NCBI RefSeq assembly: GCF_003666605.1
Contig: NZ_RCIV01000001.1
Coordinates: 372,001 to 436,000 of the forward strand
Length of the DNA stretch: 64,000 bases
Source: Propionibacterium australiense
GTDB taxonomy: Bacteria; Actinomycetota; Actinomycetes; Propionibacteriales; Propionibacteriaceae
Reading direction: 5' to 3'
This document shows positions 35,588 to 46,414 of the stretch, piece after piece. The position numbers and the translations under genes were made by a program. Position 1 is the first letter of the stretch; every line of letters starts with the position of its first letter. Below the pieces are notes generated by a model. It worked only from the letters and a program-made list of their open reading frames with translations. It was not told the DNA's origin and searched no databases.

Positions 35588-36913
35588 CTAGGCCGAGGGA
35601 GTGATCCTTGTCAGCGTGTTGATGATGTGGTCGAATGCGTCGCCGTCCTTCGCGTCGGTGAGGTTGGCGAGCAGCTTGTTGACGAAGCGCATGAGCGCCG
35701 GCCGCGGGAGGCCGTAGGTGGTGCACAGGTGCATGACCGTGGGATTGCCGATGAGCCGCGAGAAGATCATGCCCAGGCGGTAGTAGCCGCCGAAGCTCTT
35801 CTTGACGTGGTTCTCGTAGCCGAGCAGGGCGCGTTCGGCGGCGGCGCCGCCGATGCCGCGGGAGTGGGCCTCGCAGATCGCGCTGGCGGCCATCTCGGCG
35901 GCCTCGAGGCTGTAGTCGATGCCCTCGCCGTTGAACGGGTTGACCATGCCGCCGGCGTCACCGACGAGCAGCAGGCCGTTGGCGTAGAGGGGCTTGCGGT
36001 TGAGGGCCATGGGCAGGGCGGCACCGCGGATCTGGCCGGCCATGTGCTCCTCGTCGAAGCACCACTGCGGCGGGGTCGTGGCCAGCCAGGTGCGCATGAG
36101 CTGGCGGTAGTCGGTGCGGCCGAAGGCCGGTGAGGAGCTGAGCATGCCCAGGCCGACGTTGCAGCGCCCGTCCCCCATCGGGAAGACCCAGGCGTAGCCG
36201 GGCAGCTGGGTGGACCTGCCGGGCTCGCCGTCCCACAGCTCGAGCCAGCTCTCCATCCACGGGTCGTCGTGGCGGGGGCTCTCGAAGTAGGCGCGCACGG
36301 CCACCCCCATCGGGCGCTTCTCGTCGCGCTGGCGGCCCATGGCCACGGCCAGGCGGGTGGAGTTGCCGTCGGCGGCGACGACGACCGGGGCGCGGAAGGT
36401 GCGCCCGTCGCTGGTGCGCACACCGGTGATGCGGTCGCCGACCAGGAGGGGTTCGACGACATTGGCGCCGGTGACCAGGTGCACGCCGAGCTGTACGGCG
36501 CGGCCGGCGAGCAGGTCGTCGAGTCGCAGGCGCGGGCAGGTGGTGCCGTAGTCCGGGAAGTCCGCGAGTTCGGGCCACGGCAGCTCGAAGGGCTCGACGC
36601 GACCGCCGTAGACGCGCAGGCCCTTGTTGTGGAGGAAACCGGCTGATTCGCTGGTGTCGATGCCCAGACGGGTGAGCATGCGGACGGCCCGCGGGGTCAA
36701 GCCGTCGCCGCAGACCTTGTCACGGGGGAAGGCGGCCTTCTCGAGGAGGAGGACGTCCAGGCCGCGCTGGGCGCAGAAGGAGGCGGTGGCGGCGCCGCCG
36801 GGGCCGGAGCCGACGACGATGACATCGGCCTCGTTCTGGTCCACCGGTGCCGAGTTCGCAAGCAATTCGGAAGCCAGGACGTTGTTCACGCCCGGCACCG
36901 CACTGTGCGTCAT
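35588..36913 (-). CDS. menJ: Geranylgeranyl reductase family flavoprotein, probable menaquinone tail reductase (MenJ-like)
   Basis: 441-residue FAD enzyme of the geranylgeranyl reductase family, which saturates double bonds in prenyl chains. FAD fold DVIVVGSGPGGAATASFCAQ (about 30-50), LLLEKAAFPRDKVCGDGL with the family's KxCGDG motif, and GLLLVGDAGGMVNPFNGEGI. In mycobacteria the homologue MenJ reduces the beta-isoprene unit of menaquinone; partly saturated menaquinone is usual in this bacterial group. Being first in a run with nuoA-N and a polyprenyl synthase supports that role over archaeal-lipid or carotenoid functions. ATG 36913 is preferred; the longer open frame adds a non-homologous leader. 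Confidence 0.8.
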   Translation of the reverse strand: MTHSAVPGVNNVLASELLANSAPVDQNEADVIVVGSGPGGAATASFCAQRGLDVLLLEKAAFPRDKVCGDGLTPRAVRMLTRLGIDTSESAGFLHNKGLRVYGGRVEPFELPWPELADFPDYGTTCPRLRLDDLLAGRAVQLGVHLVTGANVVEPLLVGDRITGVRTSDGRTFRAPVVVAADGNSTRLAVAMGRQRDEKRPMGVAVRAYFESPRHDDPWMESWLELWDGEPGRSTQLPGYAWVFPMGDGRCNVGLGMLSSSPAFGRTDYRQLMRTWLATTPPQWCFDEEHMAGQIRGAALPMALNRKPLYANGLLLVGDAGGMVNPFNGEGIDYSLEAAEMAASAICEAHSRGIGGAAAERALLGYENHVKKSFGGYYRLGMIFSRLIGNPTVMHLCTTYGLPRPALMRFVNKLLANLTDAKDGDAFDHIINTLTRITPSA

Positions 36914-37094
36914 CGCCTCACCCAATCCACCATGGATCCGATTGTTCTGACATCCCTGACGCCGGACGCTCCCTGAGCCTGTCGTTGGGGACTCCCTGTC
37001 TCTCATAGAGTAGGCGTCCGCGCCGCCCGCGTCGACATCGGGGTCAGAAAACGGACCGGCGCTGACTCGAATTTCTTTCGGCTACTCTTCAGGC

Positions 37095-38333
37095 GTGATC
37101 GTTAACCCCGGTTCAACGCGAATGCGGGCGAGTACCGCCGCCATCGCCGACCCCGGCCCGCTGACCGACTTCCTGGACGGCTCGGGAGCGGCCTTCCTCA
37201 GAGGGCAGGACGGTTTCATCGCGCTCGGCCAGATGGCCCGCCTGGATGACGTCTCCATGGACGAGGCCGACGGGTGGTGGGAGGAGTTCTCCGCCCAGAT
37301 CGAGAACGAGACCGAGATGCCCGAGGCCTTCGGCACCGGCCCCATCGCCTACGGCTCCTTCACCTACGACCCGGCGCGTACCAGTCAGCGCTCCTGCTTC
37401 GTCGTCCCCGAGGTCATCGTCGGGCGTCGCGAGGGCCGCTGCTGGGTCACCCGGCTCGGTTACGACCGCGTCGACCCGGTCCTGCCCGAGCGACACGGCC
37501 CGGCGACCGCTCCCGGACGGGTCCGTTTCGAGACCAGCGAGGAGGCCAACCAGGAGTGGCTCGACCACTTCAACCGCGTCAAGGAGTACATCACGGCCGG
37601 CCGGGCGGACCGGGTCGTGCTGCTGCGTCAGCTCGACGCCCTCGCCGAGGGCGAACTCGACCCGCGCTGGGTGCTGCACCGCTGGCGGCTGGGCTACGGG
37701 GGCTCGTGGGCCTACCTGGTGAGCGGCCTCGTCGGTGCGACCCATGAGGTCATGGTGCGTCGGCGCGGCGGCCTGACCGTCTCGCGCATCCTCGCAGGTT
37801 CCGTGCAGGCCCTCGGCGGCATGGACGAGGCGACCCGGACCGCCCAGCTGCTGTCCAGCAGCGAGCGGCTGTCCCAGCACCATCACGCGGTCGCGGCGGC
37901 AGCGGAATCACTGAGCCCCTTCATGACCGGCATGCACGTGCCACGCCAGCCCTTCGCGCTCTCGCTCCCCGATGGTCTCAACCTGGCCACCGACATCTGC
38001 GGCGTGGCCTCGCCCGGCCACTCCTGCCTGGCGCTCGCCTCCGCGCTGCACCCGCTGGCCTCGGTCACCGGCTCGCCCCTCGCGGCGGCCCGGGAGATCA
38101 TCGACGAGACGAGCACGATCGACCGCGGCCGCTTCGGCGCCCCGGTCGGCTGGATCGACGCCCAGGGCGACGGCGAGTGGTTCGCCGCGCTGCGCGCCTG
38201 CCAGCTCGGGCAGCGGGGGGGTGCTCGGTTGTACGCCTCGGCGACGGTCTCGGCGGGTACGAGCGCCCACGACAAGCTCGTGTCCACCCAGGTCAAGCTC
38301 TCCCAGATGCGCCGGCTGCTGACCGAGCGCTGA
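37095..38333 (+). CDS. menF: Isochorismate synthase-like chorismate-binding protein with altered active site
   Basis: 412-residue protein of the chorismate-binding (MenF/EntC) family; isochorismate synthase would open menaquinone synthesis. Conserved parts: GATHEVMV with the general-acid Glu (E218), LHPLASVTGSPLAAA, RGRFGAPVGWID and GDGEWFAALRA. Three catalytic positions appear changed against the EntC/MenF pattern as I recall it: R173 for the base Lys of KVVLAR, Q261 for the first Mg-binding Glu of EHxxV, and S397 for the second Mg-binding Glu four residues before K401. LAGSVQALGG also replaces the usual AGTRPRG. Activity is therefore doubtful. GTG start without ribosome site; TACTCT six bases before it suggests a leaderless message. 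Divergent from menJ. Confidence 0.72.
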   Translation: MIVNPGSTRMRASTAAIADPGPLTDFLDGSGAAFLRGQDGFIALGQMARLDDVSMDEADGWWEEFSAQIENETEMPEAFGTGPIAYGSFTYDPARTSQRSCFVVPEVIVGRREGRCWVTRLGYDRVDPVLPERHGPATAPGRVRFETSEEANQEWLDHFNRVKEYITAGRADRVVLLRQLDALAEGELDPRWVLHRWRLGYGGSWAYLVSGLVGATHEVMVRRRGGLTVSRILAGSVQALGGMDEATRTAQLLSSSERLSQHHHAVAAAAESLSPFMTGMHVPRQPFALSLPDGLNLATDICGVASPGHSCLALASALHPLASVTGSPLAAAREIIDETSTIDRGRFGAPVGWIDAQGDGEWFAALRACQLGQRGGARLYASATVSAGTSAHDKLVSTQVKLSQMRRLLTER

Positions 38334-38385: not shown

Positions 38386-39876
38386 TCAGGCGCCGAACGG
38401 CAGACCGGCAGCGCCCGGGGCGAGATTGACGAGGATGTTCTTCGTCTGCTGGTAGGCGTCGAGGATCATCTTGTGGGTCTCGCGCCCGATGCCGCTCTCC
38501 TTGTAGCCGCCGAAGGGGGCGCCGGCCGGGAAGGCGTTGTACTGGTTGATCCAGACGCGCCCGGTGCGCACGCCGGTTGCCACGCGCAGGGCACGGCCGA
38601 GGTCGTTGCTGAACACGCCGCCGCCCAGGCCGTAGTCGGAGTCGTTCGCCATGGCGATGACCTCGTCCTCGTCCCTGAAGGGGATGACGACGCCGACGGG
38701 GCCGAAGATCTCCTCACGGGCCACCCGCATGTCGTTGCTGCCGAGAAGGAGCGTGGGCTGCATGAACGCGCCCCGGTCCAGGGGCTCCTGCGTGCAGCGC
38801 GACCCGCCGACGACGAGCTCGGCGCCCTCGGCCCTGCCGATCTCGACGTAGTCGAGGATCTTGGCCAGCTGCCGCTCGTTGATCTGCGAGCCCATCTGGG
38901 TCTGCGGATCGAGCGGGTCCCCCACCCTCACCTCGGCGAAGGCCGCTGTCACGGCGGTCATGAAGCGGTCCAGGCAGTTGTCCTGGACGAAGATGCGCGA
39001 ACCGGCCGAGCAGACCTGTCCCTGGTTGAACAGGATGCCCATCTGGACACCGTTGACGGCCACCTCGAGGTCGGCGTCGTCGAAGAAGATGTTGGCGCTC
39101 TTGCCGCCCAGCTCGAGGGTGGCCGGGATGATCTTCTCCGCGGCGGCCAGGCCGATCCCCCGCCCCACCTCGGTGGATCCGGTGAACGCGAGCTTGTCGA
39201 CATCGGCGGTCTTGAGGTACTCGCCGGAGCGGCCACCCGAGCCCGTGACGACGTTGAGCACACCGGCCGGCAGGATGCCGGCCTCGTCGACGAGACGCGC
39301 CAGATCGAGCACCGACAGCGAGGTGGCGCTGGAGGGCTTGAAGACGACGGTGTTGCCCGCGACGAGGGCCGGGGCGAGTTTCCAGGCGGCCATGAGGAAG
39401 GGGAAGTTCCATGGCACGATCTGGCCGATGACGCCCAGCGGCTCGCGCAGGATGATGCTGAGCGTGCTGGGGTCGATCATGGTGGCCGCTCCCTCGTCGG
39501 CCCGCATGCAGCCGGCGAAGTAGCGGAAGTGGTCGATCCCCAGGGGCAGGTCGGCGCCCCTGGTCTCACGGATCGGCTTGCCGTTGTCGAGTGACTCGAC
39601 GACGGCGAGGTGCTCCAGGTTGGCCTCGATGAGGTCGGCGATGTCCAGGAGCGCCCTGGCCCGGTCGGCGACCGGGGTGCGCGCCCAGCCCGGGAATGCC
39701 TTCCGCGCCGCCGCGGCGGCGGCGTCGACGTCCTGCCTGGTGGCGTCGGCGATGGTGGCCAGCCGCTCGGCGGTGGCGGGGTTGTGCGACTCGAGCTCGG
39801 CCCCGTCGGAGGCCGGACGCCAGCCGCCGTCGATGTACAGGCCGTAGCTGTCCTGGATGGTTGCCCTGTCGTTCAT
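38386..39876 (-). CDS. NAD-dependent aldehyde dehydrogenase
   Basis: 496-residue cytoplasmic aldehyde dehydrogenase that oxidises an aldehyde to its acid. Catalytic set: N157 in VPWNFPF, E255 in LELGGKSANIFF and C289 in NQGQVCSAGSR; cofactor motif FTGSTEVGRGIG. The sequence resembles acetaldehyde or phenylacetaldehyde-type ALDHs; substrate not assignable. AAGGAG precedes ATG 39876. The longer in-frame opening upstream is non-homologous. It is monocistronic between terminators. Confidence 0.92.
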   Translation of the reverse strand: MNDRATIQDSYGLYIDGGWRPASDGAELESHNPATAERLATIADATRQDVDAAAAAARKAFPGWARTPVADRARALLDIADLIEANLEHLAVVESLDNGKPIRETRGADLPLGIDHFRYFAGCMRADEGAATMIDPSTLSIILREPLGVIGQIVPWNFPFLMAAWKLAPALVAGNTVVFKPSSATSLSVLDLARLVDEAGILPAGVLNVVTGSGGRSGEYLKTADVDKLAFTGSTEVGRGIGLAAAEKIIPATLELGGKSANIFFDDADLEVAVNGVQMGILFNQGQVCSAGSRIFVQDNCLDRFMTAVTAAFAEVRVGDPLDPQTQMGSQINERQLAKILDYVEIGRAEGAELVVGGSRCTQEPLDRGAFMQPTLLLGSNDMRVAREEIFGPVGVVIPFRDEDEVIAMANDSDYGLGGGVFSNDLGRALRVATGVRTGRVWINQYNAFPAGAPFGGYKESGIGRETHKMILDAYQQTKNILVNLAPGAAGLPFGA

Positions 39877-40183
39877 CGGATTCTCCTTCTGGGATCGCGG
39901 CCGGCCCGGCGGCCTCGCAGAGCCCCGTGCCGCACGCGCCGGCCAGTGATCCCGAACGCGTTCACCATGCGCTGCTTCTCCCCGTGGTGAGCTCACCGGG
40001 GCGGAACCGTCGCGATTCGCGCAGTTCGTGGGGCTCCTGCGGTTCCTCCACCATAGGAAGCTGCGAAGGACCGCGTCACCGGCCTTTCGCCACCAGCTCA
40101 CGGGACCGGGCAGACGAGACGGCGGTGGCCCCGGGACACCTGTCCGGGGCCACCGCCGTGACCGGATTTCCTGGGCCGGGCGC
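39877..40183. other. Intergenic stretch upstream of aldehyde dehydrogenase
   Basis: 307 bases without a gene. It must hold the aldehyde dehydrogenase promoter (GAACGCGTTC at 39954-39963 is a perfect 10-bp palindrome that could be an operator) and contains the terminator at 40120-40158. Confidence 0.6.
40120..40158 (-). terminator. Terminator after ABC transporter operon
   Basis: Perfect 15-bp stem CGGCGGTGGCCCCGG (40120-40134), nine-base loop, complementary arm 40144-40158, 26 bases past the permease stop. Confidence 0.8.
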
Positions 40184-42004
40184 TCAGGCCCTGAGCCGCG
40201 GGCGGGACCGCCCGGCCGACTTCTCCAGCGGGGGGCGGGTGCGCCCGTTCGAGGTGGACCGCGAGATGACCTGCTTGGTGCGCGGTGTCCTGCCGCTGCG
40301 GGCGTCTGCGCGGGCCCTCTCCAGTTCCCGGCGGGACTCGGCCTGGGCCTCCAGCAGTTCCTCCTGGTTGAGGGTGGCCCCGGAGCGCAGGAGCACCCAG
40401 ACGATGATCGCGATGACCGCGGAGATGATCGGTGACCAGTTCATGACGAGGGGGAAGTTGACCAGCACCACCATGTCGATGCCGCGCACCATGTTGAACA
40501 TGAGGCTCGGCGGTACGGCGCCGGCGCCGGTGGCGACCATCGGGGCGCTGTAGTCGGCGGACTTGGCGCTCACCCAGCGCATGGCGCCCAGCACGGCCCC
40601 CGCCGCGGCGATGGCGCCGTACCAGATCGTCCTGCCCGGATCGGGCTGCGGACCGCCCAGGCCCAGGATGAAGGCCGGTGTCACGGCGAGGGTCCACAGG
40701 AGGGCCAGGACACCGGGCACCACCAGGACCGCGTCCCGCAGCTCCGCGTCGCTCATCGGGAACAGCCGGGCGAGACCCTTGGTGCGGCTGAGGACGCGCA
40801 TCGAGTCGAAGAACGGCACGATGACGACGAGCAGGACCAGTGAGGCCAGGAACGGGGCGAGCGTGACGACGCCCAGCGAGCTGAGCGCGTAGGGCACGAT
40901 CACGGCGATCGCCAGCCCGACGAGCGGGGTCGGGTTGCGGCGCAGGCGGTGGACGTCACGCCAGATGAGCGCGCGCGTCCCCTTGCCGCGTCCGCGGATG
41001 ACCGCGACGTGGCCCTTCAGCTGGTAGCGGCGTTCGATGAGGATGTCGCGCATGAGCGCGAAGTCGAGTGCGAAGGCGGCGCCCTGCATGCCCGAGACGA
41101 GTTCACCGCCGCTGACCAGGCGGGCACGCCCGATGTTGCTCAGGCGGCGCCTGGCGACGACCGCGGCGAGGACGCCCAGCACCAGGGCGGCGACGGCGAT
41201 GGCCCAGGCGATGCGGGTCGACAGCAGCGTGCTGATGCCGACGGCGAACCAGCCGCTGGCCGTGGCGATCACGGTGACCAGGACCGCGACGGCGAACGCC
41301 CCGACGAGCAGCTGGGCGAGGCGGACCAGCCGGTCCTTCTCCGCGCCCTGCTGGGCTGCCGCGAAGGCCATCCAGCCGGTGGTCGTCAGCCCGGTGGCGG
41401 CGGTCCAGGCGACGACCGAGGCGCCTCCCAGGCCGGTGAGAGCGGTGACGAGCGCGCCGAGTGCGGCGGCGGCCAGGCCGGCGCCGAGGACCATCATCCA
41501 CATGCGGCGGGCGAGGATCGCCGAGCGCCGCAGCGGCGCGTCGAGCAGCCAGAAGCCCTCCGCGGCCGACGCGATGACCGGGCCGAAGACCCGGCTGGCG
41601 GCCAGGACGGCGACCCAGCAGGCGGCGAGAACGAGCCAGCCGATGAGTTCACGGGCCGTGCTGCAGCCCTCGGTGGTGCAGCCGGCCGCCTGGTTCTGGG
41701 CGCTTCGGATGGCGCTGACGATCATCGCGGCGATGATGACGATGCTGAAGACCGCGACGTAACCGTCGGTGAGCATGGACAGGATCGACCGGGTCGCCCT
41801 GCCCTTGCGCCAGTCCTTGACCAGCAGCATGAGCTGGCGCTCGACGACCTCGCCCTGCTCGTACCCGCCGACGTCGGCGAACGGGTAGTCGGGGTCGAAC
41901 CCGGTCACCGGTTCGATCGTCTCGGGCGCCGGCACGGCCGCCTGCTGCACCTGCTGGGCGGCGGACTGCTTGGTCCTGCGCCGCTTGTTCCTCGACCTGC
42001 TCAT
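40184..42004 (-). CDS. ABC transporter membrane protein, probable DUF6297-type permease
   Basis: 606-residue membrane protein with a cytoplasmic, Lys/Arg-rich N-terminus ([17 protein letters not shown]), about ten or more hydrophobic segments in two clusters (about 80-280 and 345-550) and a basic Arg-rich C-terminus. The central soluble stretch contains HVAVIRGRGKGTRALIWRDV. It overlaps the upstream ATPase gene by ATGA and so is its membrane partner. It resembles actinobacterial permeases grouped as DUF6297; this name is from memory. Likely an exporter, substrate unknown. Confidence 0.7.
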   Translation of the reverse strand: MSRSRNKRRRTKQSAAQQVQQAAVPAPETIEPVTGFDPDYPFADVGGYEQGEVVERQLMLLVKDWRKGRATRSILSMLTDGYVAVFSIVIIAAMIVSAIRSAQNQAAGCTTEGCSTARELIGWLVLAACWVAVLAASRVFGPVIASAAEGFWLLDAPLRRSAILARRMWMMVLGAGLAAAALGALVTALTGLGGASVVAWTAATGLTTTGWMAFAAAQQGAEKDRLVRLAQLLVGAFAVAVLVTVIATASGWFAVGISTLLSTRIAWAIAVAALVLGVLAAVVARRRLSNIGRARLVSGGELVSGMQGAAFALDFALMRDILIERRYQLKGHVAVIRGRGKGTRALIWRDVHRLRRNPTPLVGLAIAVIVPYALSSLGVVTLAPFLASLVLLVVIVPFFDSMRVLSRTKGLARLFPMSDAELRDAVLVVPGVLALLWTLAVTPAFILGLGGPQPDPGRTIWYGAIAAAGAVLGAMRWVSAKSADYSAPMVATGAGAVPPSLMFNMVRGIDMVVLVNFPLVMNWSPIISAVIAIIVWVLLRSGATLNQEELLEAQAESRRELERARADARSGRTPRTKQVISRSTSNGRTRPPLEKSAGRSRPRLRA

Positions 42005-42684
42005 ACGAGCTGCTCCGGCTCGGCCAGGGACTGGCTGGTGGTCTCGGTGGCGCCGACGCGGACGACGCGGGCACCGACGGCCTCAACGAGCGAGGGCTCA
42101 TGACTGGCCATGATGATGGCCAGTCCGTTGCGGTCCTTCTCGTGGCGCAGGCGATTGCCCAGCCAGTCGATGCCCTCGACGTCGAGACGCTGCTCGGGCT
42201 CGTCGAGTACGAGAAGTTTCTTGGGCCGCACGAAGGCGGTGGCCAGGGCGAGCCGGCGGCGCTGACCGCTGGACAGGGTGCCGGGCAGCTGACCCGACTG
42301 CGGGACGAGCTGGACCTCCTCGAGGATCGCGTCGACGAGCTCGTCGGGGTCCTCCAGGCCGTGGGCGCGGGCGAGCAGGTCGAGGTGCTCGACGACGGAC
42401 AGGTCGGGGAAGAAGTCGAGGTCGTCGATGACGGTGGCGACATTGCGCCGGAACCTCGGATCGGTGTCCTTGGCCTTCTCACCGAGCACCTCGATGGTCC
42501 CGTCGGTGGGTCTGTCGGATCCGACGATGCATCGCAGGATCGTCGACTTGCCCGAGCCGTTGCGGCCGGTCAGCGCGACCGCCTCCCCCTCGTGGACGTC
42601 GAGGCTGAAGCGGGAGACGATCGTGTTGTCGCCGTACTTCTTCGCCAGATTGCTGATTCTCAGAACCGTGGAGCGCCGTGCCAT
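42001..42684 (-). CDS. ABC transporter ATP-binding protein
   Basis: 227-residue ATPase for the membrane protein downstream. Walker [13 protein letters not shown], signature [15 protein letters not shown] (LSSGQ variant of LSGGQ), Walker [13 protein letters not shown], and switch His in MASHEP. Two starts are possible, 42684 and 42693; CACAAT seven bases before 42684 and lack of a ribosome site favour a leaderless message from 42684. Gene order ATPase then permease with overlap is typical of small ABC-2-like exporters. Confidence 0.88.
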
Positions 42685-42796
42685 GGGGTCCATTGTGCTG
42701 CATGCCCAAACCCCGGTGCGCCACGCGAACAGCCCGCGGATGGCGGCCGGCGGGCGCACACGGTCCCCGTCACCGGGGCCTGTCACAATGATGAGC

Positions 42797-43492
42797 GTGG
42801 CAAGCAGAGCGAATCTTGACAGGGACCGCGACGAGGTCGCCGGCATGTTCGACGAGACCGCACCCCGGTACGACCTCATGAACGACGTGATGAGCCTGGG
42901 ACGTGACCGCGCCTGGCGCCGCGAGGTCGTCCGGGCCCTGGCGGTCAGCCCCGGCGAGCGCGTGCTCGATCTGGCCGCCGGCACCGGTACCTCGTCCGTG
43001 CCGTTCGCCCGGGCCGGCGCGGCGGTCTACCCCACCGACCTGTCGATGGGCATGCTGCGCACCGGCAAGCAGCGCCAGCCCCATCTCGAGTTCGTCTGCG
43101 GGGACGCCACCCACCTGCCCTACGGCGACCGGGTCTTCGACGCCACGACGATCAGCTTCGGCCTGCGAAACGTCGAGGACACCCTCGGCGCCCTGCGCGA
43201 GCTGCGCCGCGTCACCCGCGACGGCGGACGCCTCGTCATCTGCGAGTTCAGCCGGCCCACCTGGGCCCCCTTCCGCTGGGTCTACCAGAGCATCTACCTG
43301 ACCCGCGTCATGCCGCTCATGAGCCGGGTGAGCGCCAACCCGGTGTCCTACGACTACCTCGCCGACACCATCCTCGCCTGGCACGACCAGCCTCACCTGG
43401 CCGAACTCATGGCGAAGGCCGGCTGGGGGCGGATCGCCTGGCGGAATCTGACCGGCGGCATCGTCGCCCTGCACCGCGGGCAGGCGATCTGA
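42797..43492 (+). CDS. menG: Demethylmenaquinone methyltransferase
   Basis: 231-residue SAM-dependent methyltransferase (UbiE/MenG family) that makes menaquinone from demethylmenaquinone, the last ring step. Seen: [23 protein letters not shown] motif [49 protein letters not shown] and [19 protein letters not shown] seven bases before GTG 42797 suggests a leaderless start there; ATGs at 42788 and 42791 in the same frame are alternatives adding three residues at most. It is followed three bases on by the nuclease gene. Confidence 0.92.
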
Positions 43493-45386: not shown

Positions 45387-46274
45387 TCAGCCGAGGGCCA
45401 GTGCCACCGCGACGCCCGCGAGCAGGCCGGCCGCGAAGACGAGTTCACCCATGCTCGTCAGGCGCAGGGTGGCGACCAGGCGCATGCCCCGGGCCCCGCC
45501 CAGGATGATGTGGGCGGCCGGTGCGAGCAGCGTGACGCCGAGCAGGCACAGCAGCGCCCACCACGTGCTCAACGCGGCGACGAGAACGCCGCAGAGGGTC
45601 ACGGCGACGACGAGGGCGGCGTAGAGCAGCCGGGTGGCGCGCTCGCCCAGGCGCGTCTCGAGGGTGCGTTTGCCCGCAGCGGTGTCCGAGGCGATGTCCC
45701 GCAGGTTGTTCGTCACGAGCACGCCGTCGGCGATGAGCCCCATGGCGACGGCCGTGACCCAGCCGGCTGAGCCGACCCGCCCGTCGAGCAGGTAGACGGT
45801 GCCCGCCGTGGCGACCAGGCCGAAGAAGACGAAGACGAAGACCTCACCCAGGCCCAGGTAGCCGTAGGGATGGCTGCCACCGGTGTAGAACCAGGCGGCC
45901 AGCACGCAGGCGACCCCGACCGCCAGCAGCCACCAGTGCCCGGTGAGGGCGACGGCCGCCAGGCCCGCCACTCCGGCCACACCGAAGCAGCCGAAGGCGG
46001 CGTTGCGCACCGTCACCGGCTCCGCGGCACCCGAACCGACGAGGCGCTGCGGCCCGACGCGGTGATCGTCGGTGCCACGGATGCCGTCGGAGTAGTCGTT
46101 GGCGAAGTTGACGCCGATGACCAGGCCGAGCGCGACGACCAGGCACAGGGCGGCGACGGCGGGGGGCGCGCTGCCCTGCCACCAGCCGATCGCGGTTCCC
46201 GCCAGGACCGGGGAGACCGCGGTGGGCAGGGTGCGCATGCGCGCCCCTTCGATCCATTCAGCAGCGCTGGCCAT
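45387..46274 (-). CDS. menA: 1,4-dihydroxy-2-naphthoate polyprenyltransferase
   Basis: 295-residue membrane prenyltransferase (UbiA superfamily) that joins the polyprenyl tail to 1,4-dihydroxy-2-naphthoate, giving demethylmenaquinone. First Asp-rich motif NFANDYSDGIRGTDD, second motif NNLRDIASDTAAGKRTLETRLG, and several membrane segments. GGGGAG precedes ATG 46274. It faces menG tail to tail across the nuclease gene, so the ring-methylation and prenylation genes are neighbours but on opposite strands. Confidence 0.93.
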   Translation of the reverse strand: MASAAEWIEGARMRTLPTAVSPVLAGTAIGWWQGSAPPAVAALCLVVALGLVIGVNFANDYSDGIRGTDDHRVGPQRLVGSGAAEPVTVRNAAFGCFGVAGVAGLAAVALTGHWWLLAVGVACVLAAWFYTGGSHPYGYLGLGEVFVFVFFGLVATAGTVYLLDGRVGSAGWVTAVAMGLIADGVLVTNNLRDIASDTAAGKRTLETRLGERATRLLYAALVVAVTLCGVLVAALSTWWALLCLLGVTLLAPAAHIILGGARGMRLVATLRLTSMGELVFAAGLLAGVAVALALG

Positions 46275-46414
46275 GGCTCCCCTCGTGTCGGTGCTGGTTC
46301 GGTGACCGCAGATCGTCTGCGGCATCCACTGCCCGATCCTGCCACGCCGGCCCCGGACGCTCGTCGGGGCATCAGCCTCTGCCCGGTTCCCGGCGTCCCG
46401 CCTAGACTTGTGTC

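Follow-up and report, generated by a model that had tools for sequence, protein, structure and literature searches.

The gene at 37095..38333 (+) of the window, the whole stretch of 64,000 nucleotides of Propionibacterium australiense DNA analysed here, is probably a conserved pseudoenzyme. It encodes a homologue of isochorismate synthase that would derive from the original MenF of the family Propionibacteriaceae, displaced by another enzyme, MenF2, and kept for a non-catalytic role. The product is a homologue of an active enzyme in which catalytic residues are missing, and its pattern of codon substitution points to purifying selection.

Fold and Catalytic Site

The open reading frame starts with GTG and encodes 412 aa. 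In a profile search the product was identified as Chorismate_bind (PF00425, E 5e-36), and the presence of the chorismate-binding fold is supported by this match, by the AF2 model (pLDDT 91.4), and by structural matches of that model to DhbC, MenF, and EntC, which extend over nearly the full length with Z scores of 42–44 (44.2 for DhbC). As modelled, the fold is intact. Against the NCBIfam isochorismate synthase profile TIGR00543, the protein scores 132 bits vs. a cut-off of 224.75; the canonical MenF2 also falls below this cut-off, with 195 bits.

The catalytic site is heavily altered (all codon positions below are on the + strand). The initial annotation had placed an arginine at the position of the general-base lysine, and glutamine and serine at those of the two Mg-ligand glutamates. 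HMMER alignments to solved structures and a multiple alignment bear this out: R173 (37611..37613) corresponds to EntC K147, Q261 (37875..37877) to EntC E241 and MbtI E297, and S397 (38283..38285) to EntC E376 and MbtI E434. In the metal site of MbtI, Glu297 and Glu434 act directly, and Glu294 and Glu431 via water (PMC8008425). All four of these acids are exchanged in the window protein (D/E258 to R, E261 to Q, E394 to K, and E397 to S), the second-shell positions of MbtI Glu294 and E431 being taken by R258 (37866..37868) and K394 (38274..38276). Similarly, S382-A383-T384 (38238..38246) replaces the G-x-G of the metal/carboxylate site, so that the active-site glycines 382 and 384 have become S and T, while N296 stands in the histidine position of HLATD and E257 in the lysine position of KD. 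The general acid E218 (37746..37748), which is the glutamate of GASPE, and the PVGW region are retained, as had also been annotated. The structure alignment, run as a check on the residue mapping, found the earlier mapping to be exact to the residue and the loss to be wider than first stated. A shift of the alignment is excluded, given that all intact-type relatives inspected have K, E, and E at the positions of the base and the two Mg ligands.

Sequencing error can also be excluded as the source of these substitutions, because they recur in three other Propionibacterium species. The copy of P. acidifaciens, the nearest relative of this genome, carries the same substitutions as the window protein; Q261, R258, K394, and S397 are common to the copies of P. 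cyclohexanicum and of P. freudenreichii (the species to which we take genome G003 to belong). Both Mg-ligand glutamates are thus lost throughout the genus, Q261 and S397 being invariant in all four copies, and the base position is R, R, or G in the other three. The carboxylate-binding R367 and K401 (MbtI Arg405 and Lys438) are found in 4/4 copies, and the general acid in three, with D in P. cyclohexanicum. From these alignments, we infer that the window protein is inactive as an isochorismate synthase. In Propionibacterium, the basic metal cage (R258 and K394) together with the kept R367 and K401 would suit a metal-free, anion-binding pocket.

A Second, Canonical MenF in the Same Genome

Four PF00425 genes are present in the genome: TrpE (contig C12), an EntC-like gene (C63), MenF (C10), and the window gene. 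The MenF on C10, which is MenF2, has all catalytic residues in the multiple alignment, adjoins menD, menE, and menB, and is 34% identical to the window protein; the window gene is therefore not required for isochorismate supply. The initial annotation had left three options for this gene: that its product works by a changed mechanism, that it has a different role, or that the genome contains another MenF. The last has proved correct and, with the canonical MenF confirmed, another role becomes the best reading of the window gene.

Two other candidates were rejected. A futalosine route does not explain the loss: PF02621 gave one 42-bit match (C12, L174 1378–2421) without an NCBIfam match, and menD, menE, and menB are present. 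The EntC-like gene of C63 has canonical residues, but its neighbors fit a siderophore-like cluster better than a replacement for MenF. It lies at a contig end (L175 2717–12491) with a thiazolinyl-imine-reductase-like gene (Irp3 type), and the same stretch contains genes for a dTDP-sugar epimerase/reductase, a glycosyltransferase, an acetyltransferase-like protein, and an ABC-2 transporter. This is possibly a glycosylated siderophore-like cluster.

The Ancestral Locus

The divergent neighbor of the window gene encodes a geranylgeranyl-reductase-family protein (GGR, MenJ-like, identified by profile matches; 35588..37006, -), and this gene pair is conserved across the family. On the other side lie the demethylmenaquinone methyltransferase UbiE/MenG (42803..43492, +), which matches NF001241 above its cut-off over residues 126–352 of ORF 42428–43492, and the 1,4-dihydroxy-2-naphthoate polyprenyltransferase MenA (45387..46325, -), above the cut-offs of NF004751 and TIGR00751. 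The initial annotation had also noted menaquinone genes next to the window gene. Synteny holds at this locus: GGR and nuo genes flank it on one side and, in most of the genomes examined, the opposite flank has ABC, ubiE, and nuclease genes. The menD gene is found inside this cluster in the intact genomes of genera g17, g27, and g21; in the MenF2 genomes examined it is at a different locus, adjoining MenF2 in all but P. freudenreichii, in which the two are about 3.5 kb apart. No new pathway genes were found adjoining the locus of the degenerate copies in the neighborhoods of the genomes examined.

Some further genes of the window can be described. An aldehyde dehydrogenase gene (38386–40101) lies between the pseudoenzyme gene and a membrane-protein/ABC pair; this insertion is also present in P. 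acidifaciens and absent in P. cyclohexanicum and P. freudenreichii, which makes it a local one. The pair itself (40184–42984), a multi-spanning membrane protein and an ABC ATPase next to ubiE, is kept in most of the family genomes examined.

Distribution and Origins in Propionibacteriaceae

The search set comprised 198 Propionibacteriaceae genomes, with genera labeled g1 (Propionibacterium), g4 (possibly Acidipropionibacterium), g14 (possibly Cutibacterium), and so on. The MenF2 clade is found in exactly 18 of them: four of g1, five of g4, and nine of g14. All 18 also contain the old gene, at the ancestral nuo/GGR locus in those examined, and in all 18 its catalytic lysine is replaced (by R, G, or Q), while K, E, E, and E are retained in all intact-type relatives inspected (several dozen). 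In the g4 and g14 copies, the general acid has become K or T, several pocket motifs are rewritten, and the new motifs TSKL, FVTGL, and WVTD-RGG are constrained. No gene of the MenF2 clade was found in the single-copy intact genomes of g17, g13, and g27.

MenF2 forms one clade (support 100/99) and the MenD of the same genomes forms its own (99/99); these separate clades suggest that a menD–menF cassette displaced the original pair. A family search found no ancestral-type MenF in most g12 and g7 genomes. In two of these (L076 and L077), where the ancestral type was likewise not found, a MenF2-like gene lies close to menD, an arrangement that resembles a completed replacement.

The catalytic site was most likely lost twice, since the flanking genes group each degenerate lineage with different intact genera: Propionibacterium with the intact g17, g13, and g27 (support 100/100), and g4 plus g14 with the intact g21 (97/98). 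The homologue's own gene tree agrees with two origins. A single origin of the degenerate copies is disfavored by the flanking genes, though it is not rejected by the gene tree (AU p 0.11).

Selection, Rates, and Promoter

Under a codon model, chosen because pairwise dS was saturated for most pairs in YN00, dN/dS was 0.088 for the old copy vs. 0.091 for the working MenF2 in g14, and 0.107 vs. 0.157 in g4. In Propionibacterium, it was 0.179 vs. 0.149, from three sequences with saturated dS. Pairwise YN00 values within g14 ranged from 0.056 to 0.114. The reading frame is open in 17 of the 18 degenerate copies. The only broken one belongs to the P. freudenreichii-like genome (L079, about 13072), where a stretch of six G around codon 45 carries a frameshift that interrupts the gene. 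This frameshift is either an artifact of sequencing or an indication that loss of the gene is tolerated in that species.

A TANNNT element just before the start codon is a mark of leaderless actinobacterial promoters. The -10-type element TACTCT (37083..37088, +), 6 nt before the GTG of the window gene, is a predicted promoter of this kind, and a TANNNT is located 6–7 nt 5' of the start codon in 17/17 degenerate copies with a readable start, as well as in intact copies. On the evidence of the sequences, the degenerate copies are shown to be under purifying selection rather than decaying.

Per-half identities and stem lengths indicate that the N-terminal half (codons 1–145; 37095..37529, +) diverges at the rate of intact relatives; in the degenerate copies, its identity to relatives equals that among intact copies. 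The chorismate-binding half (codons 150–412; 37542..38330, +) was accelerated on the stem and later constrained. Relative to the intact tips, change in this half vs. the N-terminal half was 3.6-fold and 5.4-fold on the two stems, with separate bootstrap intervals. The old pocket positions are better conserved than the rest of this half in both degenerate groups (p 7e-5 and 7e-4), with residues that differ between the groups; this conservation may partly reflect the buried core.

The Probable Retained Role and Its Alternatives

We propose the following course of events. The old MenF would have been inherited vertically and still occupies its original position, with the nuo/GGR genes on one side and ubiE on the other. 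MenF2, acquired together with its own menD, would have taken over isochorismate synthesis; the old menD is no longer in the ancestral cluster. The old MenF would then have lost its base and metal site and yet have stayed, its former active site becoming, in Propionibacterium, a metal-free, positively charged pocket. The retained function is most likely non-catalytic and tied mainly to the N-terminal half. Candidate roles are interaction with some other menaquinone- or respiratory-cluster protein and the sensing of a pathway carboxylate. More broadly, and as something close to but short of an even bet, the MenF of these actinobacteria may have a hidden non-catalytic function in its N-terminal half, which kept the old protein, independently in two lineages, after a menD–menF cassette had spread horizontally and taken over catalysis.

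The main rival to a non-catalytic role is different chemistry: a repurposed enzyme that catalyzes another reaction on a chorismate-like compound without Mg2+ or a lysine base, using E218, R367, and K401 plus R173, R258, and K394. This we regard as unlikely. The predicted fold is complete, E218 is kept in three of the four Propionibacterium copies (D in P. cyclohexanicum), and each group conserves its own new residues at the former pocket positions. However, in g4 and g14 the general acid has also been exchanged (K or T) and most pocket residues are unlike those of Propionibacterium, so that one shared new reaction is unlikely, and the locus has no new adjoining pathway genes.

It is less probable still that the gene is a decaying relic: a former MenF, redundant beside MenF2, that is drifting toward loss. 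Such decay would agree with the redundancy itself, with the frameshift in P. freudenreichii, and with the failure to find the old MenF in most g12 and g7 genomes, two of which were examined and have a MenF2-like gene by menD. It accords poorly with 17 open frames out of 18, with dN/dS as low as in a working MenF, with the conserved (predicted) leaderless promoter, with the constrained new motifs TSKL, FVTGL, and WVTD-RGG of g4 and g14, and with an N-terminal half that evolves at a normal rate. Least credible is the option of the initial annotation that the protein is still an isochorismate synthase, with a changed mechanism. Despite the retention of E218, R367, K401, and the PVGW region, the general base is exchanged, as are the two direct Mg ligands, the two second-shell acids, and the two metal-site glycines, and all genomes that have a copy of this kind also encode a canonical MenF. 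In addition, mutation of chorismate-contacting residues in Arabidopsis ICS1 abolished or nearly abolished activity (PMC11444293), which also speaks against a changed mechanism.

Significance and Comparison With Known Systems

A literature search turned up no description of an inactive isochorismate synthase, and nothing on the window protein. A homology search would label this gene as isochorismate synthase in cheese bacteria and, presumably, in skin bacteria. The menaquinone and DHNA pathways of these organisms are of practical interest, and models or engineering that use this gene would target the wrong one. If MenF does have an old moonlighting role, this would add an unrecognized layer to menaquinone synthesis.

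The window protein resembles MenF, EntC, and DhbC (PF00425) in its fold, in E218, R367, and K401, and in its place at the ancestral actinobacterial menF locus. Unlike them, it has no base, no Mg-ligand glutamate pair, no second-shell acids, and no G-x-G, and the pathway is supplied by another, canonical MenF. Closer to it is the single-copy intact MenF of g17, g13, and g27 (e.g., L037, L008, and L010), which has 43–51% identity, the orthologous locus with the GGR neighbor where the region is covered, the same N-terminal half, and the same predicted leaderless promoter, but which keeps K, E, E, and E.

The AdoMetDC prozyme (PMC5201418) and a dead deoxyhypusine synthase paralogue (PMC3663545) are examples of paralogues that have no catalytic activity and regulate enzymes. 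As in those systems, a presumably dead copy has been kept here under selection beside an active relative; unlike in those systems, the active relative is distant (34% identity) and is no recent duplicate.
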